From Methanoregula sp. PtaU1.Bin051 (GTDB taxonomy: Archaea > Halobacteriota > Methanomicrobia > Methanomicrobiales > Methanospirillaceae): a stretch of 64,000 bases of DNA. The stretch lies in NCBI GenBank assembly GCA_002067895.1, contig MVRE01000006.1, forward strand, positions 1 through 64,000. Direction: 5' to 3'. The translations under genes and the position numbers were made by a program. The notes beneath the pieces were generated by a model, which was not told where the DNA came from, made no database searches, and saw nothing but the letters and a program-made list of their open reading frames with translations. Below, one piece after another: positions 29,250 through 45,043 of this stretch. Within the stretch, counting starts at the first letter, position 1. Each line of letters opens with the position of its first letter.

Positions 29250-29981
29250 TCAGCGCAGCCGGCGCATCGTAAGAAGTCCGGCTCCGGATACAGCAATAAG
29301 GACAAACCCAACGTCCGGCGCAGCCCGGTTCGATGTCATGGGGCCGGAGGTTACCGGGACTGTTGTTACAGGAGTAATAACCGGAACGGTCATTGGTGGT
29401 GACGTAACAGCTGCTGTTGTTTGCGGCACAGTCGTTTGTCTCACAGTCGTTGGCGTAGTGACAAAGCCCACCTTCTTTTCCGGAACATCGATCCGGGCCG
29501 GGACTTCCTCCCCGGTCGCGGGATTTTCAGCACGGATATTGAAGGTCTTTGATGCCGTCGCGGACGAGGTCGAGAACTGGACGATCCCAAAGCCGTCAGA
29601 GTCGGTCGTGACTTTTGCATAGTAACGGGTGTTCGAAACTGAAGCGGAGGATGGTGCTACATCATCGATGATCCTCTTTCCGTTGCCGCCGCTGTATTGG
29701 TACGAGCCGATAACGTATGGCCCGCCATCCGGGTCGAACTCCACCCGTTCAGTATTTCCGACGATGACCGGCGGCTGGTCGCCGGGTTCCCCGGTCATGG
29801 CAAAGGTCCGGGTGAACCAGACATGGTATGGGGTATTCGGTTTTCCCGCAATCGAGATCGTGAACATGCTGCCCCGTGTCAGCGAATCGACGGCAGCAAC
29901 GGGTAGAATAATTCCTGTGATAATAATCGCAGTAACCATACAGAAAAGCAGGATCCGACAGTGAACCTCCCGCGTCTCCAT
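29250..29981 (-). CDS. secreted, C-terminally anchored DUF3821-type protein
   Basis: A 243-residue protein from METREVHCR. It has a signal peptide (about residues 9-31), a beta-rich ectodomain beginning SLTRGSMFTISIAGKPNTPY, and a Thr/Pro/Val-rich linker (about 170-220). It ends in a hydrophobic segment VGFVLIAVSGAGLL with MRRLR, the layout of methanogen S-layer-associated proteins. The ectodomain matches my recollection of the DUF3821 domain. It should face the outside of the cell. The Met at 30020 is an alternative start, but it lies before the signal peptide. Confidence 0.72.
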   Translation of the reverse strand: METREVHCRILLFCMVTAIIITGIILPVAAVDSLTRGSMFTISIAGKPNTPYHVWFTRTFAMTGEPGDQPPVIVGNTERVEFDPDGGPYVIGSYQYSGGNGKRIIDDVAPSSASVSNTRYYAKVTTDSDGFGIVQFSTSSATASKTFNIRAENPATGEEVPARIDVPEKKVGFVTTPTTVRQTTVPQTTAAVTSPPMTVPVITPVTTVPVTSGPMTSNRAAPDVGFVLIAVSGAGLLTMRRLR

Positions 29982-30075
29982 TATTACAATTCCTCCTGCA
30001 TGACTATCGTTATCCTGCATGAAGGATATTGCGGTAGTGCAGTAAGTGTTACGAAGATTGATAGATAAATCAAAA

Positions 30076-30087
30076 TATATAGTTTAA
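30076..30087 (+). promoter_or_regulatory. TATA-type promoter of the first kinase gene
   Basis: The 12-base word TATATAGTTTAA occurs here and, identically, at 36605-36616 before the third kinase. Archaeal transcription starts about 25 bases after the TATA box, so near 30105. That places the GTG at 30088 before the transcript begins and GGAGGT (30106-30111) near its 5' end. Confidence 0.6.
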
Positions 30088-30117
30088 GTGAAGTCACCGC
30101 TCACGGGAGGTCGTACG

Positions 30118-32421
30118 CTGATCCCGGTTCTCTATGTAGATGATGAATCCGATCTTCTTGAGGTCGGCCGCCTCTTCCTCGAAGAGGACGGGAAGTTCAG
30201 TGTCGATACGTTCACGTCGGCCAAAGAAGCTCTTGAGGCCGTGAAGGTGCGGCGCTACGATGCAATCATCTCCGATTACCGTATGCATGACATGGACGGG
30301 ATAGAGTTTTTAAAGGCTGTCCGTTGTATAGCCGGCGATGTCCCGTTCATCCTCTTCACCGGGCGGGGGAGGGAGGAGGTGGTTATTGAGGCGATCAACA
30401 ACGGTGCTGACTTCTACCTCCAGAAGGGTGGCGATTCGGAAGCCCTGTTTGCCGAGCTCATCCACAAGATCAAGAAGGCAATCGAACGCCGGCAGGCGCT
30501 TTTTGATCTCCGGAATTCCGAACAGCGCCTTGCCGACATCATCAACTTCCTGCCGGATGCCACGTTTGCCATCAATACATCCGGGATAGTAATTGCCTGG
30601 AACAGGGCAATGGAGGTTATGACCGGAACCAATGCAGCGGATTTTCTGGGAAAGGGCGGGTACGAGTACGCCATCCCGTTTTACGGCACACGCCGGCCAA
30701 TTCTTATAGACCTGGTTCTGGCCCCGGACGAACGGTTCGAAAGAGAGAAGTATCTCTATGCCACCCGCGAAGGTACAACCCTGACTGCCGAGACCGTTGT
30801 AGTAAAGCCGGACGGGAGTACAGTCAACCTCTGGGGAAAAGCCAGCCGCCTTTATGACAAAAACGGGAACCTTGCCGGTGCGATCGAGTCCATCCGCGAT
30901 GTAACCGATCTCAGGCGGGCGGAAGAGGCGATCCGGGAGAGCGAAGAAAGGTTCAGGGCGATCATAGAAACCTCACCGGATATCATCTGGGAGATCGATA
31001 CGGAAGGTATGTTCCGGTATATCAGCCAGCGTGCAACAGAGATCATCGGTTATCGCCCCGAGGAGCTGGTCGGACAATCCATAGCAACTCTCATCCCGGA
31101 AAACACAAGGCCGTATATAATGCAGGAGCTGGCACGGCACGGCCGGTCAAAAGGATCGCTCTTCACTATCGAGGTACCGGTATTGCACAAAGAGGGCCAC
31201 AATCTCTTAATAGAGATACGCTCGTCCCCCTTTACCGATGAAGACGGCGTTATGATCGGGCACCGTGGCATGGCCCGGGACATAACGGAAAGGAAGAAAG
31301 CACGGGAAGAACTGAGGGGCGCTTACGAACAGCTGAACGCAGCTGACGGGGAACTGCGGAGGCAGTATAAGGAGCTTGTGCAGAGCGAACTGCAGATCCG
31401 GGAGAGCGAGGGACGGTTCCGGTCAATCGTGGAGACGTCACCGGATATGATCTGGGAGATCGATATGCAGGGAATGTTCCGGTATATCAGCCCGCGTGTG
31501 ACGGAGATCCTTGGTTATTTTCCCGAGGAGCTGATCGGAAGATCCGTAACAAACCTGCTGACAGATGAGGCACGGCCCTACATTATGGAAAGGATCGCAC
31601 GCGACGGGGCATCGGAGGAATCGATGTTTACCTTTGAAGTCCCGGCGCGCCATAAGGATGGCCGCGATCTCGTGATCGAGATCCGATCATCCCTGTTTAC
31701 TGACAGTGACAGGAATGTAACCGGATTCCGGGGTGTGGCCCGGGACGTTACGGAAAAGAAAAAAAGCGAAGAAGTCGTGCGTCGGGCGCGTCGCAAACTT
31801 ACGCTTATGACCGGCATTACCCGCCATGACATCCTGAACAATATTATGGCTGTGCTTGGATTATTGCGACAGGTAAAGAAGGACTCACCTGTTCCGGAGA
31901 TGACGGCGTTTATTGAAAAACTGGAGAGGAGGACGAAGCTGATCCGGCAGCAGATTGAGTTCACTCGGATCTATGAGAAACTCGGCACTCAGGACCCCTG
32001 CTGGCAGGATCTCCATGCACTTATATCCCGACTCCAGGTCCCGTTTGGAATCGCTCTTTCTGACACCAGTGCCGGTATAGAGATCCTCAGTGATATGATG
32101 CTCTGGAATGTCTTTGAAAACCTGCTGGACAATTCCATGCGCCATGGGGGCGATGTTACAGAAATAAAGATCAGTACATGGGAAACCGGCTCCGGGCTGG
32201 TTGTCATGTACGAGGACAATGGTATCGGCATCCCGGCCGATGAAAAGGAGAAGATCTTTGAGCGGGGTTATGGGAAGAATACGGGACTCGGGCTGTTCCT
32301 TGTCCGGGAGATCCTTGCCCTGACTGGTATTGCAATCCATGAGACCGGTCAGCCCGGCCGCGGAGTCCGGTTTGAGATGGCCATCCCGAAGGGATCATAC
32401 CGGTTTACGAAGTCCATCTGA
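30118..32421 (+). CDS. receiver-PAS3-histidine kinase (probable CTG start)
   Basis: A cytoplasmic hybrid sensor kinase of 767 residues. It has an N-terminal receiver (VLYVDDESDLLE, phospho-Asp in IISDYRMHDMDG, then QKGG) and three PAS domains. A H-box with phospho-acceptor His (GITRHDILNN, about residue 569) and a HATPase with NLLDNSMRHG and EDNGIGIPADEKEKIFERGY follow. GGAGGT (30106-30111) stands 6 bases before CTG 30118. That CTG aligns codon for codon with the ATG of the two downstream paralogues (LIPVLYVDD against MYSLLYVDD). An in-frame GTG at 30088 lies within or before the presumed transcript start. No membrane segment is seen. The signal is unknown. Confidence 0.85.
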   Translation: MIPVLYVDDESDLLEVGRLFLEEDGKFSVDTFTSAKEALEAVKVRRYDAIISDYRMHDMDGIEFLKAVRCIAGDVPFILFTGRGREEVVIEAINNGADFYLQKGGDSEALFAELIHKIKKAIERRQALFDLRNSEQRLADIINFLPDATFAINTSGIVIAWNRAMEVMTGTNAADFLGKGGYEYAIPFYGTRRPILIDLVLAPDERFEREKYLYATREGTTLTAETVVVKPDGSTVNLWGKASRLYDKNGNLAGAIESIRDVTDLRRAEEAIRESEERFRAIIETSPDIIWEIDTEGMFRYISQRATEIIGYRPEELVGQSIATLIPENTRPYIMQELARHGRSKGSLFTIEVPVLHKEGHNLLIEIRSSPFTDEDGVMIGHRGMARDITERKKAREELRGAYEQLNAADGELRRQYKELVQSELQIRESEGRFRSIVETSPDMIWEIDMQGMFRYISPRVTEILGYFPEELIGRSVTNLLTDEARPYIMERIARDGASEESMFTFEVPARHKDGRDLVIEIRSSLFTDSDRNVTGFRGVARDVTEKKKSEEVVRRARRKLTLMTGITRHDILNNIMAVLGLLRQVKKDSPVPEMTAFIEKLERRTKLIRQQIEFTRIYEKLGTQDPCWQDLHALISRLQVPFGIALSDTSAGIEILSDMMLWNVFENLLDNSMRHGGDVTEIKISTWETGSGLVVMYEDNGIGIPADEKEKIFERGYGKNTGLGLFLVREILALTGIAIHETGQPGRGVRFEMAIPKGSYRFTKSI

Positions 32422-32620: not shown

Positions 32621-35600
32621 ATGTACTCCCTCCTCTATGTTGATGACGAGCCGGGACTCCTGGAAATTGCCAGGACATTTCTCGAGAAATCAGGGGAATT
32701 TTCTGTCGATGTCCATACGTCAGCGCAGGACGCGCTTGCTACGGACAAGTTCTCATCCTACGATGCAATCATCTCCGATTACCAGATGCCGGAGATGGAT
32801 GGCATAGCTTTTCTCAAAGAGGTCAGGTTCCGTTTCGGTACTATCCCGTTCATTCTCTTTACCGGAAGGGGGAGAGAGGAAGTAGTGATCGAGGCAATCA
32901 ACAACGGCGCTGATTTCTACCTCCAGAAGGGCGGTGATCCCCGTGCACAATTCGCCGAACTCATGCATAAGATCCGGCAGGCTATAACCCGGCGGCAGGC
33001 CCAGAACGAACTCAAGGCAGCGTACGAACGTATCACCGCGTCTGAGGAAGAGCTTCGCAGCCAGCTCGATGAGATAATTAAGGCCCAGCAGGACCGGGAA
33101 AAGACTGAAAAAAATTTCCGTAACCTTGTCGATAACGCTCCGGATGCAATTTATATCCAAACCAATAACCGGTTTGTCTATCTCAACAACGCGGCGCTCC
33201 GGCTGCTCGGCGCAACCTCCGCCGGCCAGTTGCTGGGAAAGAATACATTCGACTGCATCCACCCCTCGTTCCACGAATGCATTCGGGAGCGGGTGAAAAG
33301 GCTAACCATTGATATAAAACCTGTCGAACTGCTGGATGAGGTCTACCTGAAACTTAACGGAACTCCCGTGGATGTGGAAGTTACCGCAGTTCCGTTCCAG
33401 TATGAAGGCGAACATGGTGCCTTGGTAATTGTCCGCGACGTCACTATCAGGAAACGTGCTGAAGCCGAACTCCGGGCAGCCTACGAACAAATCAGCGCTG
33501 CGGAAGAGGAACTTCGCGGCCAGTACGAGGAACTGGCACAGAGCGAACAGAAAGTCCGGGAGAGTGAGGAGAAGTTCCGCGAACTGGCCGAACTCCTGCC
33601 CCAGACAGTCTTTGAGATGGACCTCGATCTCCGGATCACGTTCGCGAACCGTTTTGCACTGGCAACATTCGGCCTTGCCAGAGAGGATATTGATAAAGGG
33701 ATTTTCGCGCTCTCGTATATCGATCCAGCCCACCATGAGCGTGTCCGGAATAATTTTAAGGCGATAGCCGGTGGAGAGCCGGCTGAGATTCAGGAATACA
33801 CACTCTCTAAAAAGGACGGAAGCATCTTTACTGTTCTTCTGTATGCCGCACCTGTCTTCAGGGCCGGAAGACTGGAGGGATTCCGTGGAATTCTCATCGA
33901 TATCTCCGATCGGAAACGGGCGGAAGACGCACTGCGCGAAAGCGAGGAGAAGTACCGGATGCTGGTTGAAGTCAACCAGGATATCATTTATTCTCTTGAT
34001 CTTGATGGTACAATTCTCTATATGAGTCCGCAGACTTCCGACCAGCTCGGGTACCGGCCCGATGAGATGGAAGGGAAAAACTTCGAATGGTTCATCCACC
34101 CTGATGACGTCGGAATGCTTGTCAGCCATATAGGCGAGCCTTTCAAGGCAGGGCACCTTGGGCCGTCCGACCAGTTCAGGGTTCGCAGGAATGACGGCAC
34201 TTACCGCTGGTACGAGGACAAATCCATCTATACCGTTGACCGCAGCGGCAGGAAAATCATAGTCGGGACGATAAGGGACATCACGGAACAGAAAAATGCC
34301 CGGGACGAACTTTTGAGCGCTTACGAACAGCTCACTGCAGCTGATGAAGAGCTTCGCGGCCAGTATGATGAACTGGCCCTGACAAGCGAGAGGCTCCGGG
34401 AGAGCGAGGAGAAGTACCGGATGCTTGTCGAGACAACAAGCGACTTCATCTGGGAGGTGGATGCAGCCGCGGTATATACGTACGTTAGCCCGAAAGTCAG
34501 GGAGATGCTCGGGTATGAGCCTGAGGAGATGGTCGGGAAAACCCCGTTTGACTTTATGCCGCCTGATGAGGCACGACGGGTTGCTGCCGATTTCAACCGG
34601 TGTGTTGAATCCCGGATCCCAATCATCACTCTTGAGAACAAGAATCTCCGGAAAGACGGTTCGGTAGTAATTCTGGAAACAAGCGGAATACCCCGGTATA
34701 CAGAAGACGGAATGTTTGCAGGGTACCGCGGTATCGACAGGGATGTATCAGATCGTAAATCTACGGAAGAAGCATTGCGTGCGAGCGAGGAGACGTTCCG
34801 CAGGGTGATCGAGGGAGCACCGGAAGCCATCTATATCGGCGTGGACTGGAAGTTTGTTTACCTGAACCCGGCTGCAGTCAGGCTCTTTGGGGCCTCTTCC
34901 AGTGAGCAGCTGGGGGGAACCCCGTTCATGAACCTGATCCATCCAAGATTCCACGACAAAATCAGGAGTCGGGTTCATCAGCTCTATGATGAGCGGGCCC
35001 CTGTTCCGCTCCTTGAAGAGGTGTACATCCGGCTTGACGGAACTGAGATTGATGTCGAGGTCTCCTCGGTGCCATTCAGGTTTGCGGGCAATGACGGAGC
35101 CCTCGTTTTTATCCGCGACATAACCGACAGGAAAAAGGCCGAAAAGGGACTGAAAGAGAGCGAAGATCGTTACCGGCGGCTTATCTCCCACTCCTTTGAT
35201 GCGGTCATTATCCATCAGGAGGGCAGGATCGTGCTCGCCAATGACGCCGCTCTCCGGATCATCGGAGCAGCCCCAGATGCCGATCTTATTGGAACACCAA
35301 TATTTTCTTTTGTCCATCCCGATTTCAGGGGTCTGGTGGCAAAGCGGGTTGAGGAGATGCTCACGCCTCCGGGGCGTACTGTGCCTCTTGTCGAAGAGAA
35401 ATTTATCCGCCTCGATGGAACATTCGTTGATGTCGAGGTGATGGAATCAGCCACGCAACATGAAGGAAAACCGGCAGTCATGGTGGTCTTCCGTGACATT
35501 ACCGACCGCAAGGTTGCAGAATCTGCCCTCAGGGAGAGTGAACTGAGGTACAGGAGTATTATTGAGGGTATAGAGGACGGTTTTGTAAGGACGGATAATG

Positions 35601-36547
35601 ATGGCCGGATCACGATGGCAAGCCCTTCGGTGGCGCACATGATGGGTTACGATTCGGCTGAAGAAATAATCGGCAGACCGATCATCTCATTCTACCGCAT
35701 GGGCGAAAACAGGCAGGCGCTGATGGACCAGATGGGGAAGGAGAAGAATGTCCGTGATTATGAGATGGAGTTCATCAGAAAGGATGGCACAGTTTTCTGG
35801 GCATCGCTTAGTGCCAAGTTCCGATATGGCGAAAATAACGAGATTCTGGGGACGGAGGCGGTTATCCGGGATATTTCAGAGCGGAAGCGTATGGAGAATG
35901 CAATCCGTGACATCAACCGGAAACTCAGCCTCTTAAACAGGGTCACAACGCACGATGTTGCCAACCAGCTGACCGTCCTTCGGGGCTATATCCAGCTCGC
36001 CGGCATGAAAAGTCCCGATTCTGATATGACAAACCTTCTTACCAAGATTGATACTGCAGCAGAGGTAATAGCCCGTCAGATCGAATTTACCCGGGCTTAT
36101 CAGGATCTTGGTGCCAGGGAACCAGTATGGCAGGATGTCGGGAAAATACTTGCCCATTGCCACCAGCCCGCCATCCACCTGAGTGCGGCGGAGGTTTCCG
36201 GGGTCGAGATACTGGCCGACCCTATGCTCCATATGGTCTTTTCCAACCTGATGGATAACACGGTCAGGCACGGTAAACGGACGACCCGCGTGACCGTTCG
36301 GGCATCGGAAGACGGCAAAGGCCTGACGGTTTTCTGGGAGGACAATGGCATCGGTATCCCGTATGAAGAGAAGGAAAAAATCTTCGAACAGGGATTCGGG
36401 AAAAACACAGGCTTCGGACTGTTCATTGTCCGGGAGATCCTCTCTCTGACCGGGATTACAATCCGGGAGACCGGTGAGCCGGGCAGCGGCGCCAGGTTTG
36501 AGATGATGGTTCCGAAGAGCTCGTACCGTATCGGGGCATCCCTATGA
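32621..36547 (+). CDS. receiver-PAS7-histidine kinase
   Basis: A 1308-residue cytoplasmic hybrid kinase. The N-terminal receiver begins MYSLLYVDDEPGLLE and has IISDYQMPEMDG. Seven PAS domains follow, each ending in a DITxRK-type linker. Domain pairs are joined by predicted coiled coils such as AYEQISAAEEELRGQYEELA. The H-box TTHDVANQLT has its His near residue 1109, and the HATPase has EDNGIGIPYEEKEKIFEQGF. The open frame begins 19 codons earlier, but ATG 32621 matches the paralogue at 36656 and follows AGGT. It is the second of three tandem paralogues. Input signal and phosphotransfer partner are unknown. Confidence 0.92.
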   Translation: MYSLLYVDDEPGLLEIARTFLEKSGEFSVDVHTSAQDALATDKFSSYDAIISDYQMPEMDGIAFLKEVRFRFGTIPFILFTGRGREEVVIEAINNGADFYLQKGGDPRAQFAELMHKIRQAITRRQAQNELKAAYERITASEEELRSQLDEIIKAQQDREKTEKNFRNLVDNAPDAIYIQTNNRFVYLNNAALRLLGATSAGQLLGKNTFDCIHPSFHECIRERVKRLTIDIKPVELLDEVYLKLNGTPVDVEVTAVPFQYEGEHGALVIVRDVTIRKRAEAELRAAYEQISAAEEELRGQYEELAQSEQKVRESEEKFRELAELLPQTVFEMDLDLRITFANRFALATFGLAREDIDKGIFALSYIDPAHHERVRNNFKAIAGGEPAEIQEYTLSKKDGSIFTVLLYAAPVFRAGRLEGFRGILIDISDRKRAEDALRESEEKYRMLVEVNQDIIYSLDLDGTILYMSPQTSDQLGYRPDEMEGKNFEWFIHPDDVGMLVSHIGEPFKAGHLGPSDQFRVRRNDGTYRWYEDKSIYTVDRSGRKIIVGTIRDITEQKNARDELLSAYEQLTAADEELRGQYDELALTSERLRESEEKYRMLVETTSDFIWEVDAAAVYTYVSPKVREMLGYEPEEMVGKTPFDFMPPDEARRVAADFNRCVESRIPIITLENKNLRKDGSVVILETSGIPRYTEDGMFAGYRGIDRDVSDRKSTEEALRASEETFRRVIEGAPEAIYIGVDWKFVYLNPAAVRLFGASSSEQLGGTPFMNLIHPRFHDKIRSRVHQLYDERAPVPLLEEVYIRLDGTEIDVEVSSVPFRFAGNDGALVFIRDITDRKKAEKGLKESEDRYRRLISHSFDAVIIHQEGRIVLANDAALRIIGAAPDADLIGTPIFSFVHPDFRGLVAKRVEEMLTPPGRTVPLVEEKFIRLDGTFVDVEVMESATQHEGKPAVMVVFRDITDRKVAESALRESELRYRSIIEGIEDGFVRTDNDGRITMASPSVAHMMGYDSAEEIIGRPIISFYRMGENRQALMDQMGKEKNVRDYEMEFIRKDGTVFWASLSAKFRYGENNEILGTEAVIRDISERKRMENAIRDINRKLSLLNRVTTHDVANQLTVLRGYIQLAGMKSPDSDMTNLLTKIDTAAEVIARQIEFTRAYQDLGAREPVWQDVGKILAHCHQPAIHLSAAEVSGVEILADPMLHMVFSNLMDNTVRHGKRTTRVTVRASEDGKGLTVFWEDNGIGIPYEEKEKIFEQGFGKNTGFGLFIVREILSLTGITIRETGEPGSGARFEMMVPKSSYRIGASL

Positions 36548-36604: not shown

Positions 36605-36616
36605 TATATAGTTTAA
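36605..36616 (+). promoter_or_regulatory. TATA-type promoter of the giant kinase gene
   Basis: TATATAGTTTAA is the same word as at 30076-30087. It lies 51 bases before ATG 36656, leaving a short leader that includes CAGGT. The second kinase, at 32621, has no identical word, so the first and third genes may be co-regulated. Confidence 0.55.
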
Positions 36617-36655: not shown

Positions 36656-39600
36656 ATGTACTCCCTCCTCTACGTTGATGATGAGCCGGGTCTGCTGGAA
36701 ATTGCCAAGGTTTTTCTGGAAAAAACCGGGGAGTTTTCAGTTGATATCTACACATCAGCGCAGGATGCCCTGAACTCCGGGGCTATCTCGTCCTGCGATG
36801 CCATAATTTCTGATTACCTTATGCCGGAAACGGATGGCATCGCCTTTTTAAAGACCGTCAGAAAACGGCACGGGGACATCCCATTTATTCTCTTTACCGG
36901 TAAAGGGCGGGAGGAAGTCGTGATCCAGGCGATCAACAACGGGGCGGATTTCTACCTCCAGAAAGGCGGAGACCCGAAAGCCCAGTTCGCCGAACTTATG
37001 CACAAGATCCGGCAGGCGATAGCCCGGCGCCGGGCTGAGCGATCGCTCGTGGAATCAGAGAAGCGGCTTTCCGACATCATCAACTTCCTGCCGGACGCCA
37101 CGTTTGCCATCGACCGGTCCGGCCGCGTGATTGCATGGAACCGTGCAATCGAGGAGATGACCGGTGTTGCCGCCGCCGAAATCCTGGGGAAGGGGGAGTA
37201 CGAGTACGCGATCCCGTTCTATGGTACGCGGAGGAAGATCCTCATTGACCTGATCTTCGAACCTGACGACGTTATTGCGAAAAATTATGCCCATATCATC
37301 CATGACAAGGATATCCTCATTGCCGATACAACGTTGCCACGGCCGAAAGGCAGGGTTGTTACCCTGATGGGCAAGGCAAGTCCTCTCTACGACCGGAATG
37401 GCAACATTGTCGGTGCAATCGAGTCCATCCGCGATATTACTGAATTGAAGATGGCGGAAGAAAAACTGCTCCATGCCAAGAAAGACTGGGAGACTATCTT
37501 TCGGGCAATTGGGCACCCCGCTCTTGTCCTTGATGCCCGGAATCGCATTATCGATGCAAATGACGCCACGCTTAAAGTAACCGGTAAGTCTCTTGCAGAC
37601 CTGAAGGGAAAACGCTGCTACGAGGTATTCCATGCCCCGGGTTTAGAACAACCCCCCGACAACTGTCCGTTCGAGCAGCTCAAAAAGACCGGCAGCTCCG
37701 AGACAGCGGAGACCGAGATCGAAGCCCTGAACGGGTATTATTCGGTCAATTGTACACCGGTTTATGGCGCCGATGGCAAGCTCGAGAAGGTGATCCATAT
37801 TGCTATGGATGTCACGGAGCGGCGACGGGTAGAGAATGCCCTGCGGCAGGCCAATGTTGTCATGGAGAACAGCCCGGTAGTACTCTTCCGCTGGAAGGCA
37901 GAAGAAGGCTGGCCGGTTGCCTATGTCTCTCAGAACGTCGTCCAGTTTGGTTATTCCCCCGAAGAGCTGCTCTCAGGCGCCATACCCTATTCCTCCATGG
38001 TGCATCCGGATGATCTTGAACGGGTGGCTTTGGAGGTTCAGAATTATTCGGATGAGGGTACTGACCAGTTCCAGCAGGAGTACCGAATTAAAACCCGCAA
38101 TGGTGATACCCGCTGGATTGATGATCGTACTGTAATCGAGCGCGACGCATCCGGACAAATCACGCACTACCAGGGCATTATCATAGACATTACCGACCGC
38201 AAGAAGTATGAAACCGAACTCCGTGCCGCTTACGAACAGATAACTGCTTCCGAAGAAGAATTGCGCGGGCAGTACGAGGCACTGGCACGGGGCGAGCAGC
38301 GGATCCGGGACAGCGAGGCCGAGTACCGCAATGTCCTTCGGACTGCAATGGACGGATTCTGTATCATCGACATGTCCGGCTCGTTCATCGATGTCAATGA
38401 CGCATTCTGCACGATGCTCGGTTACTCCCGCGGGGAAGTACTTACCCTTTCACTTCCCAAGGTGGAAGTCAGGGAAACCCCGGAAGAGATCGCCAGCCAC
38501 ATCAGGGAGATCATCAGGAAAGGCGAGGACCGGTTCGAAACAAAATTCCGTCGTAAAGATGGCAGGATCATCGATACAGAGGTAAGTGTTGTCTACACCC
38601 GGACCAATGGCGGCCGTTTTCTCACGTTCAGCCGGGACATCACAGATCGGAAAACCATGGAAAAAACGCTCCGCGAGAGCGAGGAAAAGTACAGGTCCCT
38701 CGTGGAAGTCTCCCCTGTTGCCGTTGCCGTGCACCGCGGCGGAACGATCATCTATGTGAACCCGGAGGCCGTCCGGCTCGCGAAGGCCGGATGTGCCGAA
38801 GATCTCGTCGGGAAGGAAATCATCTCATTCATTCATCCTGATTACAGGCAAAAGGCGCTTGAGGATTTACGCCGGATAGCTGAGGAAGGCAGGATAATTC
38901 CTCTCCAGGAAGAGCAGTTCCTTACGGTTACCGGTGAACCGTTCACTGTCGAGGTCGTGGCGAAACGGATCCTGTACGAAGGTTTACCCTCCGTATTAGT
39001 TGCATTCCGGGATATCACCGAACGCAAGAAGGCAGAGGAAGCGCTTCGGGAGACCGGGAGACGGTTGCAGGAAGCCCAGGAGATGGCGCACCTGGGTTTC
39101 TGGACCTGGGATGTTGCGACGGGACAGGTCGAATGGTCTGACGAGGTTTTCAGGATCTTCGGGCTCGATCCCAAAAAATTCACTCCGCAGATCGATTCTA
39201 TCCTTGCGCTCTCCCCGTGGCCCGAAGAGCAGCAGCGCGGTGCGGAACTGATCCGGAAAGCAACGGTGTCCCGCGAGCCGGGCACATATGAACAACGGTT
39301 CCTCCGGCCGGATAAAAGCATCGGATATTACTACTCTACCTTCCAGGGCAGGTATGATGACGCCGGCAATCTCATTTCCATCATCGGGACTGTACTGGAC
39401 ATTACCGAACGCAAGAAGACCGAAGAGGCGCTCCGCGAGAGCGAGCAGAATTACCGCCTCCTCTTCGAGACCGCATCGGAAGGCATCCTTGTCGCGCAGG
39501 GCGACCGCATGGTGTACGTCAACGCTGCGATGATCCGGCTCCTCGGTTACCCGGAGGATGTCATCACATCAAGGCCGTTTACCGATTTCATCCATCCCGA

Positions 39601-42600
39601 TGACCGCGAGCTTGTCCTCTCCCGCCACCTCCAGCGCATGAGGGGAGAGGCACCTCCCACCGGTTACATTTTCAGGATCATCACGCAGGAAGGGCAGGAG
39701 AAATGGGTCCGGATCAGCTCGACGCGGATGAACTGGTCCCAAAAACCCGCTTCGCTCAGTTACCTCACGGATGTCACGGAGCAAAAAAAGGCTGAAGAGC
39801 GCCTTATTGCCGCCAACAGGGAATATATCGCCCTGCTCGACCAGATCCAAGACGTATATTACCGGAGCGATAATGAGGGCAGGCTGGTTAAGGCCAGCCA
39901 GTCCTGGGCAAAACTCCTCGGCTATAACGATGTCTCCGAATGCATCGGGAAAAGTATTACAGACGAATTCTACATCAACCCGGCTGACCGTGAAAGGTTC
40001 CTCGAAGAGATCAACCGGAACGGGAAAGTCACCGATTACGAAATCCTGTTGAAAAAGAAGGACGGGACGCCGGTGCTTGTGGAGACCAGCAGCCACCTCT
40101 CGTTCGATTCTGCGGGGAATATTACCGGTATCGAAGGCACGTTCCGCGATATTACCGACCGGAAAAACACGGAAAAAGCACTCCGCGAGAGCGAGATCAA
40201 GTTCCGCGCCATTGTCGACCATTCCTTTGAGTTCATCGGCCTCCTGACACCTGATGGTGCCCTGGTCGAAGCCAACGAATCAGCGCTGGCATTTGCTGGG
40301 ATTTCTAAATCCGAAGTACTGAACCGGCCGTTCTGGGAGACCCCCTGGTGGACGCATTCTCCGGAACTCCAGGATAAACTCAGGGACGCCATTATACGCG
40401 CTGCATCCGGCGAGACCGTCAGGTTCGAAGTTCCCCTCCGTGATGCGCACGGACAGACTGCCGATTTTGACTTCTCGTTAAAACCGGTCATGGATCCGGC
40501 TGGCAGGATCCAGTACCTGATCCCGGAAGCCCGGGATATCACGGCACAGAAACGGGCGGAAGAGGCGCTCGAAAAGCGCCTCATTGCCCTGACACAGCCA
40601 CTGGAAGATACGGGAATTGCCTTTGAGGATCTCTTCAATATCGAAGAGATCCAGCGCCTGCAGGATGAGTTTGCGAAAGCTACCGGGGTAGCCGTGCTAC
40701 TCACCCGCCCGGACGGCACGCCGATAACAAGACCGAGCAACTTCTGCCGGTTATGCGGCGAGATCGTGCGGAGCACCGAAACGGGAAGGCTGCGATGCCA
40801 GAAATCTGATTCCGTTCTCGGGGAATTCCATGAGGGGGGGCCGTTCGTGCATACCTGCCTTTCCGCCGGCCTTTGGGGGGCCGGGGCAAGCATTGTGCTT
40901 GGCGGCAGGCACATCGCCAACTGGCTGATCGGGCAGGTACGCAACGAGGCCCAGACAGAGGAGGGGATGCGGGCATATGCGCGGGAGCTCGGTGTCGATG
41001 AGGAGGAGTTCATCAGGGCATTCCTTGAAGTTCCCGTAATGTCCCCGGAGCAGTTCGGGGCTGTCGCACAGTCGCTCTACATCCTTGCAAACCAGTTGTC
41101 CAGATATGCATACCAGAATGTGCAGCAGGCCCGTTTCATCACCGAGCGGAAAAAGGCCGAAAAGGCGCTGCGGGAGAGCGAGGAACGATACCGGCTGCTC
41201 GTGGAGAATATCCCCTTTGGCATCACTCTGATCGATGCGGAACACCGGGTCATTCTTTCGAATGCCGCCCAGGGGCAGATGTTCCACACGGACCCTGGAT
41301 CATGGGTCGGGAAATACTGCTACCGGGAATTTGAGAAGCGCGATGCCGTGTGCCCGCACTGTCCCGGGACCAGAGCAATGGCCACAGGAATGTGTCATGA
41401 TGTGGAGACCGCGGGTATCAGGGATGATGGAACCAGGTTCAATGCCCGTATCCATGCTATCCCCCTGCCGGATCCTGAGGGGCGTATCACAGGGTTTATT
41501 GAAATTGTCGACGACATTACCGAGCGGAAAAAGGCCGAAGAGGCGCTGCGGGAGAGCGAGGAGAAGTACCGCGCACTGGTCGAGGCAACCGGTACGGGAT
41601 TTGTTATCATCGACGAACGGGGAAAGGTACTGGATGCGAACCAGGAATATGTCCGTCTTACGGGCCATGCTACGCTTGATGAGATTGCCGGAAGAAGCGT
41701 CCTGGAATGGACAGCCGATTACGAGAAAGAGAAAAATACTGAAGCGGTACGGCAGTGTCTTCGGGACGGATTTATCCATAACTTAGAGATCGATTACACT
41801 GATGCTTCCGGAACCATCACTCCGATCGAGATCAATGCGACCGTTCTGAAATCCGGGGACTCCCTTCAGATACTTACGCTTTGCCGGGACATCACCGACC
41901 GCAAGAGGGTTGAAACTGAACTCCGGGAGAAGACCGAGGAACTGGACCGGTTCTTTACGGCAAGCCTCGACCTTTTCTGTATCGCGGATACAGACGGGTA
42001 CTTCCGGCGGCTGAACCCCGAATGGGAACGGACGCTCGGGTACTCGCTTGCCGAGCTTGAAGGCCACCGGTTCCTCGATTTCGTGCATCCCGATGACCAG
42101 GCAGCCACGCTGGCCGCTGTTTCCGACCTGCGCAACAAGAAGGAAGTGATTAACTTCACGAACCGTTACCGCCATAAAAACGGGGAATACCGGTGGATCG
42201 AATGGCGATCCTACCCGACGGGGAACCTGATCTTTGCCGCAGCCAGGGACATCACAGCACGCCATCTTTCCGCGGAGTACACTGCCCGGATCAGTGCGCT
42301 CAAGCAGGACATGCTCGGCGTCGCACCGCTGGAAGAGAAACTGAAAAAGATTACGGACTGCATTGTCGATCTGTTTGGCGCCGAATTTGCACGGATCTGG
42401 ATCAACGGGCCCGGGGACCTCTGCAATCAGGGGTGTGTCCATGCACTGGTCGCTGAGGGCCCGGCCGCGTGTCAGGACCGCACTGCCTGCCTGCACCTCG
42501 TTGCCAGCTCAGGGCGGTACACCCATATTGATGAAGGTATCAGCAGGGTACCGTATGGGGTGACCAGTATTGGCAATATCACACAAGGTAATGACCCCTT

Positions 42601-45043
42601 CTATATCACCAACGATGTAGCCCATGACACGGTTGTCCGCGACCATGAATGGGCGGTTTCACTGGGCCTGGTCTCCTTTGCAGGGTTCAAGCTGGTATCT
42701 CCGGAAGGAAAACCGATCGGGATTCTTGCCCTTTTCAGCCGGCAGCCGATAAATACGGATATCGCCGTGTTCCTGGAAGACCTTGCGACAACGGCATCAC
42801 AGGTTATCGGTACCGGAATTGTGGAGAGGACTCTTGCCGAAAGCGAGGAGAAATACCGGACGCTTATCGAACAGAGCCAGGACGGGGTGGCGATTGTCCA
42901 GGACGAACGGCTCGTCTTTGCCAACCGGGCATTATCATCGATGATCGGCTATTTTGAGGAGGAAATTCTCGGTCATCCTATCGATGAATTCCTCGCCCCG
43001 GAGGATCTTGGAAGGGTCATGGCCCTGCACCGCGAAAGGATGGGCGGCGGGCAGGCCCCGTCATCGTACGAATTCGCACTCCTCCACAAGGATGGCAAAA
43101 GCCGTGTCATCACGAAGATGAACGCCGGGAAAGCGATAATCGGTGGAAAACCGGCAATGATCGCAACGTTCCATAATATAACAAAAGAACGGGAACGGGA
43201 GGAAGCCCTCAGGGAGAGCGAGGCCCGGCTGAGATCGATCCTTCGCGGGTCTCCGGTATTACAGTTCGTCATTGACCGCAACCATAAGGTCATCTCGTGG
43301 AACAAGGCGATCGAGGAGTACAGCGGGATTAAGGCCGAGGAGATCCTCGGTACCGACCAGCAGTGGCGGGCGTTCTACAGGGAGAAGCGGCCGGTGCTTG
43401 CCGACCTGCTCGTTGACGGCAGGATAGATCTCGTCCCTGAATTGTATGCCGGGAAGTACAGCAAATCCGAACTTGTCGAAGGTGCCTATGAAGCAACTGA
43501 TTTCTTCCCGGAGATGGGCATATCGGGAATCTGGCTCCATTTCACTGCAGCCCCGATTGTGGATCCGGTGGGAACCATCATCGGGTCGGTCGAAACGCTT
43601 GAGGACATCACAGAGCGGCAGAGAGCCGAAGAATCGCTGAAAAAGAGCGAGGAGCAGTATAAGCAGATCTTTAAATCGTTTATCGACATTTACTACGAGA
43701 CCGACAGAAACGGGATTATAACGGTACTCTCTCCCTCCGTTTATCCTATGTCCGGCTGGAAACCGGAAGACCTGATAGGAAAACCGGTCTCGGTCCTTTA
43801 CGTCAACCCGTCCGAACGGCAGGTGCTTCTCGAACGGCTGAAGCGCGAACACGCGGTACATGGGTTCGAGGTGGAGCTGAAAAAACGGGACGGCACACCA
43901 ATCCCGGTTTCTGTCAACGCCCAGATACGGTATAACCCGGCAGGGGAACCGGACGGAATTACTGGTTCGATCCGGGATATCACGAACGATATACTGGCGC
44001 GAAAAAAATTACAGGAGAGCGAGCGGCAGTACCGGAGTATTATCGAAAATATCCAGGACGCATTCATCCGTACCAACAGGGACGGGCAAATCATCATTGC
44101 CAGCCCGTCTGCGGCAACATTGACCGGTTACGGTTCTGTTGACGAGATGATTGGTACGCCTTTCTTGTCATTATTCAGGTTCGCTGAAGACTTCCAGACC
44201 CTCCGGGAGATGATTATGGTGGAGAGGCACGTCCGCGACTACGAGGTCGAGTTTGAAAGGAAGGATGGTTCCGCCTTCTGGGTGGCGGTCAGCGCCCATC
44301 TCCTGTCTGAAGAGCAGGGAAGTACCCTTGGACTTGAGGGTATTGTCCGTGATATATCTGAACGCAGGAGAATGGAAAACGCGATACGCGAGGCCAACCG
44401 GAAACTCAATCTTTTAAACAGCGTAACAAGGCATGACGTTGCGAACCAGCTGACGGCGCTTCGGGGTTATACGCAGATCGCCTCGATAAGGAAACCCGAG
44501 CCTGTCATCGCCGACCTTCTCGCGAAGATTGATGCAGCAGCAGCCACAATCGCCAGCCAGATCGAGTTCACGAAGATCTACCAGGAGATGGGATTGAAAG
44601 CTCCGGCATGGTTCCAAATCGAAGAGGTTGTGACACAGGCTGGCAACAGTCTGGTAAAATTCTCCACAACCTGCCGGAAATACGAGATCTTTGCCGATCC
44701 GATGCTCGGACGTGTCTTCTTTAACCTGTTCGATAACTCCGTCCGGCACGGCGAGAAGGTTACTGCAATCACTGTCCGCTGCGAGCGGGCACCGGGCGGG
44801 CTGGTGATCATCGTTGAAGATGACGGGATTGGAATTCTATCTGGAGAAAAAGAGAAGATCTTCGAGAAAGGATTCGGGAAAAATACCGGCTTCGGCCTAT
44901 TCCTCGCAAGGGAAGTCCTCTCGCTCACCGGCATCACGATCCGCGAGACCGGGATCCCGGGAAGAGGGGCGCGGTTCGAGATCCTTGTACCGAAAGGGCT
45001 GCACCGCTTCGTATCGCCAACGACTCCCGCATCGCAGGAATAA
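36656..45043 (+). CDS. giant receiver-PAS16-PocR-GAF histidine kinase
   Basis: A 2795-residue cytoplasmic kinase. In order it has a receiver (MYSLLYVDDEPGLLE, IISDYLMPETDG) and nine PAS domains. A PocR-type domain of about residues 1305-1490 (RPSNFCRLCGEIVR, CLSAGLWGAGASIVLGGRHI) follows. Three PAS domains, a GAF domain of about 1878-2058 and four PAS domains come next. A H-box with RHDVANQLTALRGY (His about 2591) and a HATPase with EDDGIGILSGEKEKIFEKGF complete it. PAS counts come from the repeated DITxRKxxEExL linkers. Cysteines in PocR (CRLC and later CPHC in the next PAS) could bind metal or act as redox sensors. No membrane segment is present. Confidence 0.92.
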   Translation: MYSLLYVDDEPGLLEIAKVFLEKTGEFSVDIYTSAQDALNSGAISSCDAIISDYLMPETDGIAFLKTVRKRHGDIPFILFTGKGREEVVIQAINNGADFYLQKGGDPKAQFAELMHKIRQAIARRRAERSLVESEKRLSDIINFLPDATFAIDRSGRVIAWNRAIEEMTGVAAAEILGKGEYEYAIPFYGTRRKILIDLIFEPDDVIAKNYAHIIHDKDILIADTTLPRPKGRVVTLMGKASPLYDRNGNIVGAIESIRDITELKMAEEKLLHAKKDWETIFRAIGHPALVLDARNRIIDANDATLKVTGKSLADLKGKRCYEVFHAPGLEQPPDNCPFEQLKKTGSSETAETEIEALNGYYSVNCTPVYGADGKLEKVIHIAMDVTERRRVENALRQANVVMENSPVVLFRWKAEEGWPVAYVSQNVVQFGYSPEELLSGAIPYSSMVHPDDLERVALEVQNYSDEGTDQFQQEYRIKTRNGDTRWIDDRTVIERDASGQITHYQGIIIDITDRKKYETELRAAYEQITASEEELRGQYEALARGEQRIRDSEAEYRNVLRTAMDGFCIIDMSGSFIDVNDAFCTMLGYSRGEVLTLSLPKVEVRETPEEIASHIREIIRKGEDRFETKFRRKDGRIIDTEVSVVYTRTNGGRFLTFSRDITDRKTMEKTLRESEEKYRSLVEVSPVAVAVHRGGTIIYVNPEAVRLAKAGCAEDLVGKEIISFIHPDYRQKALEDLRRIAEEGRIIPLQEEQFLTVTGEPFTVEVVAKRILYEGLPSVLVAFRDITERKKAEEALRETGRRLQEAQEMAHLGFWTWDVATGQVEWSDEVFRIFGLDPKKFTPQIDSILALSPWPEEQQRGAELIRKATVSREPGTYEQRFLRPDKSIGYYYSTFQGRYDDAGNLISIIGTVLDITERKKTEEALRESEQNYRLLFETASEGILVAQGDRMVYVNAAMIRLLGYPEDVITSRPFTDFIHPDDRELVLSRHLQRMRGEAPPTGYIFRIITQEGQEKWVRISSTRMNWSQKPASLSYLTDVTEQKKAEERLIAANREYIALLDQIQDVYYRSDNEGRLVKASQSWAKLLGYNDVSECIGKSITDEFYINPADRERFLEEINRNGKVTDYEILLKKKDGTPVLVETSSHLSFDSAGNITGIEGTFRDITDRKNTEKALRESEIKFRAIVDHSFEFIGLLTPDGALVEANESALAFAGISKSEVLNRPFWETPWWTHSPELQDKLRDAIIRAASGETVRFEVPLRDAHGQTADFDFSLKPVMDPAGRIQYLIPEARDITAQKRAEEALEKRLIALTQPLEDTGIAFEDLFNIEEIQRLQDEFAKATGVAVLLTRPDGTPITRPSNFCRLCGEIVRSTETGRLRCQKSDSVLGEFHEGGPFVHTCLSAGLWGAGASIVLGGRHIANWLIGQVRNEAQTEEGMRAYARELGVDEEEFIRAFLEVPVMSPEQFGAVAQSLYILANQLSRYAYQNVQQARFITERKKAEKALRESEERYRLLVENIPFGITLIDAEHRVILSNAAQGQMFHTDPGSWVGKYCYREFEKRDAVCPHCPGTRAMATGMCHDVETAGIRDDGTRFNARIHAIPLPDPEGRITGFIEIVDDITERKKAEEALRESEEKYRALVEATGTGFVIIDERGKVLDANQEYVRLTGHATLDEIAGRSVLEWTADYEKEKNTEAVRQCLRDGFIHNLEIDYTDASGTITPIEINATVLKSGDSLQILTLCRDITDRKRVETELREKTEELDRFFTASLDLFCIADTDGYFRRLNPEWERTLGYSLAELEGHRFLDFVHPDDQAATLAAVSDLRNKKEVINFTNRYRHKNGEYRWIEWRSYPTGNLIFAAARDITARHLSAEYTARISALKQDMLGVAPLEEKLKKITDCIVDLFGAEFARIWINGPGDLCNQGCVHALVAEGPAACQDRTACLHLVASSGRYTHIDEGISRVPYGVTSIGNITQGNDPFYITNDVAHDTVVRDHEWAVSLGLVSFAGFKLVSPEGKPIGILALFSRQPINTDIAVFLEDLATTASQVIGTGIVERTLAESEEKYRTLIEQSQDGVAIVQDERLVFANRALSSMIGYFEEEILGHPIDEFLAPEDLGRVMALHRERMGGGQAPSSYEFALLHKDGKSRVITKMNAGKAIIGGKPAMIATFHNITKEREREEALRESEARLRSILRGSPVLQFVIDRNHKVISWNKAIEEYSGIKAEEILGTDQQWRAFYREKRPVLADLLVDGRIDLVPELYAGKYSKSELVEGAYEATDFFPEMGISGIWLHFTAAPIVDPVGTIIGSVETLEDITERQRAEESLKKSEEQYKQIFKSFIDIYYETDRNGIITVLSPSVYPMSGWKPEDLIGKPVSVLYVNPSERQVLLERLKREHAVHGFEVELKKRDGTPIPVSVNAQIRYNPAGEPDGITGSIRDITNDILARKKLQESERQYRSIIENIQDAFIRTNRDGQIIIASPSAATLTGYGSVDEMIGTPFLSLFRFAEDFQTLREMIMVERHVRDYEVEFERKDGSAFWVAVSAHLLSEEQGSTLGLEGIVRDISERRRMENAIREANRKLNLLNSVTRHDVANQLTALRGYTQIASIRKPEPVIADLLAKIDAAAATIASQIEFTKIYQEMGLKAPAWFQIEEVVTQAGNSLVKFSTTCRKYEIFADPMLGRVFFNLFDNSVRHGEKVTAITVRCERAPGGLVIIVEDDGIGILSGEKEKIFEKGFGKNTGFGLFLAREVLSLTGITIRETGIPGRGARFEILVPKGLHRFVSPTTPASQE

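Follow-up and report, generated by a model that had tools for sequence, protein, structure and literature searches.

The window, a 64,000-nucleotide stretch of the Methanoregula sp. PtaU1.Bin051 genome (contig MVRE01000006.1, positions 1 to 64,000), carries a sensor kinase gene, here called kinase 1, with two paralogues downstream of it, kinases 2 and 3 (Table 1). The genome is a 2.31-Mb draft assembly of 23 contigs. Kinase 1 unites the receiver-PAS-kinase domain set in one protein, with nearly full-length matches to Response_reg (7.7e-22), PAS (3.4e-46) and HATPase_c (1.2e-17). No HisKA-type family is found among its domain matches, and the residues ahead of HATPase_c read TRHDILNN, which may be the H box, the region of the phosphoacceptor histidine. 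The frame is uninterrupted along its full length, and kinase 1 is apparently an intact receiver-PAS-kinase gene of a methanogenic archaeon. Its best three named homologues by E-value come from Methanomicrobiales metagenome-assembled genomes, Methanoregula and Methanospirillum among them, and are 35-40% identical to it. A strict orthologue was not found in a search of 60 genomes that scored no more than 17 candidates in each; four other genomes hold a match at E<=1e-120, none of which covers the whole protein. The titles and abstract openings covered by a literature search contained no report on this kinase family.

Several neighbouring genes also have features of their own. The listed open reading frame of kinase 2 begins at ATG 32564, and the column in which the family's proteins begin indicates ATG 32621. 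Kinase 3 is a very long, PAS-rich protein of 2795 aa; besides a receiver, HATPase_c and a PocR sensory domain, it has as many as 15 PAS stretches. On the minus strand, the open reading frame at 29250-30020 has its listed start at ATG 30020, but translation may actually start at ATG 29981, which is preceded by AGGAGG (GGAGG core at 10 nt).

Table 1. Features of the kinase 1 start region and of the two downstream paralogues (positions in the window).
Feature	Position	Strand	Remarks
TATA box, best consensus (AATATATA)	30074..30081	+	Agrees at 8/8 positions with one of the five words used; start of box at -44 from CTG, -14 from GTG
TATATAGTTTAA	30076..30087	+	Word common to the upstream regions of kinase 1 and kinase 3
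TAA stop	30085..30087	+	In frame with kinase 1, closes the frame upstream; direct reading
GTG, sole in-frame standard start	30088..30090	+	Shine-Dalgarno score 0
GGAGGT Shine-Dalgarno motif	30106..30111	+	6-nt spacer (CGTACG) to CTG
CTG, proposed start codon	30118..30120	+	Same column as the paralogues' ATG
Kinase 1	30118..32421	+	Receiver, three PAS stretches, HATPase_c; 767 aa from CTG, 777 aa from GTG
Kinase 2, paralogue	32621..36547	+	ATG in the same column as CTG 30118; reads MYSLLYVDD
Second TATATAGTTTAA copy	36605..36616	+	Before kinase 3
Kinase 3, paralogue	36656..45043	+	ATG in the same column; reads MYSLLYVDD

From the in-frame stop to the receiver domain of kinase 1, GTG 30088 is the only ATG, GTG or TTG (row L023 of our survey), and reading from it adds MKSPLTGGRT ahead of the protein that begins at CTG 30118. 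The CTG is followed by ATC CCG GTT CTC TAT GTA GAT GAT, giving LIPVLYVDD by direct reading. As the sequence-only reading had claimed, GGAGGT stands exactly 6 bases before this CTG, which aligns with the ATG of both downstream paralogues (LIPVLYVDD against MYSLLYVDD; ATG 32621 and ATG 36656); its further observations, that the GTG directly follows TATATAGTTTAA and that the same word precedes kinase 3, were likewise borne out. TATATAGTTTAA occurs three times in the 2.31-Mb assembly and begins 42 nt before the CTG of kinase 1 and 51 nt before the ATG of kinase 3. The third copy, at 112328-112339 on the minus strand, is uninformative because no nearby predicted gene was seen to start just downstream. 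Folding of the region is unremarkable, the hairpin over the Shine-Dalgarno (SD) motif and start of kinase 1 being no more stable than those of shuffled sequences.

To place the CTG among its relatives, we surveyed the codons found in the start column. Within the same genome, 19 receiver-type regions were fetched and 17 had a readable receiver start. The column holds ATG in 12 of the 17, including kinases 2 and 3, and five of these 12 have a further in-frame start upstream; the other five have another residue in the column plus an upstream start. In the 108 genomes of the family, a strict motif (NTG-7N-T.YT.TAYGT.GAYGA) with ATG, GTG or TTG in the column gave 499 matches (per-genome counts summed), seven of them, all ATG, in the kinase 1 genome itself. 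The motif matched 14 times with CTG in the column and 17 times with CTA, CTC or CTT. Most of these leucine-column relatives have an in-frame start 6-87 nt upstream, and among the 14 CTG rows the majority have an ATG or GTG in frame 9-81 nt upstream, so most of the CTG rows are probably not CTG starts. Leucine is thus natural in the column of N-extended proteins, and the column by itself is therefore no proof of a CTG start. The N-terminal extension of kinase 1, for its part, is scarcely matched by paralogues: of the 21 other matches in the genome with a beginning at query residues 4-14, 16 begin at residues 10-13, the CTG codon being residue 11. We also considered whether CTG is enriched in the start column (14/31, p = 0.09 for all rows; 13/25 against an expected share of 0.32, p = 0.03, in a trimmed set without five rows, L110, L112, L117, L119 and L120, and CTG row L026, which did not look like intact family members). 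This comparison was not used as evidence, because it takes codon usage from the kinase 1 genome only and ignores that L030/L031 and L032/L033 are seemingly close kin.

The window shows no enrichment of GGAGGT (35 copies against 30.6 expected), and with its core ending 5-10 nt before the codon it stands ahead of only 4 of 2848 internal CTG codons in the sampled genes (0.14%); GGAGG at start-like spacing precedes 25 of the 2848 (0.9%). When the surroundings of the chosen starts of 366 predicted genes were searched for an in-frame CTG at most 60 nt away and behind an SD of at least 6 bases at 5-10 nt, the kinase 1 CTG was the single hit. Its GGAGG core ends 7 nt before the codon, within the 6-14 nt range of the 36 genes that have free upstream sequence and an SD of at least 5 bases, three of which are also at 7 nt. 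Near-cognate starts in the sample were listed in 10 rows, including the kinase 1 CTG and the ATC next to it; most of the others overlap a standard start sharing the same SD, and no other CTG is among the rows listed. Nine ATG paralogues were scored: the SD is shorter or missing in eight and stands at 12 nt in one, so these genes do not need one, a point against the CTG reading.

Across the family, 55 rows have GGAG at start-like spacing before the column, which then holds ATG in 32, GTG in 8, TTG in 2, CTG in 2 and other codons in 11. The two CTG rows are kinase 1 and a gene of genome G023. An order-wide search with GAGG, which matched in 43 of 232 genomes, gave no third CTG among the 10 rows counted and the rest inspected by eye. 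By a general SD score, at least 5 SD bases precede the column in 5 of the 14 CTG rows (L022, L023, L025, L027, L033) and in 2 of the 17 CTA/CTC/CTT rows (L107, L114). The scores of L025 and L027 are 5 and 6 bases, with the upstream GTG itself part of the match; L033 has 6 SD bases at 16 nt, and L107 has 6 at 15 nt. Apart from kinase 1, then, one of the 13 CTG rows (G023) has GGAGG at 7 nt, and the chance of at least one in 13 is 0.11.

Kinase 1 shares its N-terminal motif with the receiver-PAS-kinases that have ATG, GTG or TTG in the column (MISVLYVDD, MYSLLYVDD), but differs from them in that the column holds CTG, an SD stands at the spacing of a start, and no better start lies upstream. Of the remaining 13 CTG rows, the G023 gene (L022) alone looks similar. 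This distant relative (G023:C116, L022/L065, reverse strand) has GGAGG 7 nt before the column CTG; the sole start upstream is a TTG that lacks an SD, and a TATA box is absent (best 4/8). In G104:C7 (L067, reverse strand), GGAGGTGGCACAT (GGAGGTG) precedes an ACG in the start column, and of the standard starts the frame has only a GTG that overlaps the SD; no box of 7/8 lies within 90 nt of the ACG, and an ACG start is possible on the sequence. Other candidates for unusual starts were set aside: an ATC behind an SD in G007 (L066) probably belongs to an extension, since an ATG lies in frame 72 nt ahead of it, and GTC codons behind an SD in G093 and G107 both have an upstream ATG. In the leucine-column gene of G109 (G109:C241, L076/L114, reverse strand), the column CTC is preceded by GGAGG at 9 nt and, at -46, by an 8-of-8 box. 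Its TTG lies 28 nt behind the beginning of the 8-of-8 TATA box, the arrangement of a probable leaderless TTG start. Here an SD and a TATA box stand ahead of a column codon that is not a start, which counts against the CTG reading of kinase 1.

We then asked at what distance from their starts the genes of this genome carry their promoters. The sample comprised 366 predicted genes in 464 kb (the window and 20 further stretches, L086-L105). Free upstream sequence was available for 221 of them: 36 with an SD of at least 5 bases, 76 with an SD of 4, and 109 without an SD, kinase 1 at its GTG being counted among the last. Of 39 TATA-word matches for SD genes, 20 begin at -51 to -40 (7/12 for SDs of at least 5 bases, 13/27 for SDs of 4); the range is -36 to -25 for 18 of 39 matches in genes without an SD, which also show an A+T peak at -31 to -26; the starts were picked by a simple score that uses the SD, which may sharpen this contrast between classes. 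SD-led genes with short leaders and leaderless-type genes therefore seem to coexist in the genome, and TATA distance seems partly to separate the two. The TATATA at 30076 lies 42 nt before the CTG, which fits the SD class, and 12 nt before the GTG, which fits neither class. The lone match in the -12 bin of the SD-less class is at the place of kinase 1's own word, and one match each falls at -9 (SD-less class) and -6 (SD of at least 5 bases).

An 8-base box that agrees at 7/8 positions or more was present in 64 other genes. Their best box never begins at -19 to -9; it begins at -47 to -38 in 15 (2/10 with an SD of at least 5 bases, 8/23 with an SD of 4, 5/31 without) and at -36 to -26 in nine, all without an SD. 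The best box of kinase 3 (TTTAAATA) begins at -44 from its ATG, and that of kinase 1, a different word, at -44 from the CTG. Trained matrices were less clear-cut. The first, from all genes, was diffuse, and two from SD-less genes recovered a BRE/TATA-like motif; all three give their top score in 29991-30118 to 30001-30003, some 115 nt ahead of the CTG. Scores equal to or lower than that of the CTG are reached by 54-63% of SD genes and 78-85% of random places; for a leaderless GTG the figures are 34% of SD-less genes and 66% of random places, a comparison only weakly in favour of the CTG.

The main competitor is initiation at GTG 30088, on a leaderless transcript directed by a weaker box at 30058-30069 or within a longer leader from a site near 30003; MKSPLTGGRT would then be part of the protein, and GGAGGT would be two glycine codons. 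The TATA words at -25 to -36 before SD-less genes suggest that the genome often uses leaderless starts, and 6-of-8 boxes at 30058-30069 begin 26, 28 and 30 nt before the GTG. The sequence-only reading had argued that the GTG would lie upstream of the expected transcript start; this holds for the strong box, and not for these 6-of-8 boxes or for the top-scoring matrix site at 30001-30003, since a leader from near 30003 would hold the GTG as well. Most leucine-column relatives, moreover, have in-frame starts 6-87 nt upstream, and the G109 gene seems to use its leaderless TTG. Against this, the strongest consensus box lies only 14 nt upstream of the GTG, a place used by none of the 64 other good-box genes; no SD precedes the GTG; a GGAGGT at such spacing falls before an internal CTG about 0.14% of the time by chance; and the extension is little matched by paralogues, 16 of the 21 matches that begin at residues 4-14 doing so at residues 10-13. 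We consider a GTG start unlikely.

It is also conceivable that the base itself is wrong or polymorphic, with a real or ancestral ATG (or GTG or TTG) at 30118 and the CTG arising as an assembly error or as a recent start-weakening mutation in the strain. A gene with an ordinary ATG start would fit the SD, promoter and column, the assembly is a 23-contig draft, PMC5622118 counts only 2 AUG-to-CUG switches in 61,358, and no orthologue was found in 60 genomes against which to check base 30118. Yet the sequence bears no sign of error, the frame being open throughout and the domain matches nearly full length, and we regard this explanation as distinctly improbable.

Taken together, the CTG lies in frame in the N-terminal column of its homologues, and the lone upstream GTG has no SD and is too near a strong TATA box. 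The proposal of CTG 30118 as the probable start is upheld as the likeliest reading by the column alignment, the 6-base SD at usual spacing and the promoter distances of the same genome. From the sequence, we put the probability that translation of kinase 1 starts at CTG 30118, a rare start codon, at about 0.75; the protein would then begin ten amino acids after the listed GTG start. Under this model, basal factors would bind the box at about 30074-30081, and a transcript starting at about 30101-30107 would have a leader of some 11-17 nt. GGAGGT would pair with 16S rRNA at its 3' end, and the initiator tRNA would be positioned on the CTG with a first-position mismatch. Methionine would be the first residue, giving a 767-aa protein with the N-terminus M-IPVLYVDDESDLLEVGR (M-IPVLYVDD...). 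The output of a CTG start would be expected to be low, which should be tolerable for a sensor kinase.

CTG starts have precedents. In Methanosarcina mazei, a methanogen like the organism studied here, Ribo-seq data assign CTG as the start codon to 5% of unannotated small ORFs (PMC11456600). Those cases are small unannotated ORFs with ribosome footprints, whereas kinase 1 has 767 codons and its CTG start is proposed from the sequence. For bacteria, values cited in PMC11497404 put CUG at 0.86% of AUG output (in E. coli) and at 0.024% of starts, which weighs against the CTG reading. Bacterial CUG starts and the proposed start of kinase 1 would have in common that the initiator tRNA mispairs at the first codon position, that such starts are seldom used and that their efficiency is low (PMC11497404, PMC5622118). 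The bacterial efficiencies and structures come from E. coli, whereas the host of kinase 1 is an archaeon. Archaeal initiation relies on factors that differ from the bacterial ones.

CTG starts having already been reported in a methanogen, kinase 1 would be one more case of a known kind and not a new system. Low output of kinase 1 may suit a sensor kinase, or it may reflect a recent weakening of the gene. A more speculative idea, to which we give little credence, is that this expanded kinase family deliberately adjusts the amounts of individual paralogues through weak near-cognate starts, with CTG in kinase 1 and G023 and perhaps ACG in G104, all of them lying precisely in the start column and preceded by a strong SD. 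If the CTG start is true, gene finders limited to ATG, GTG and TTG, the ORF list used for the window included, give kinase 1 ten false residues, and other archaeal genes may share the problem. Promoter-to-start distances offer, pending experimental confirmation, a cheap screen for misassigned starts and CTG starts in methanogen genomes.
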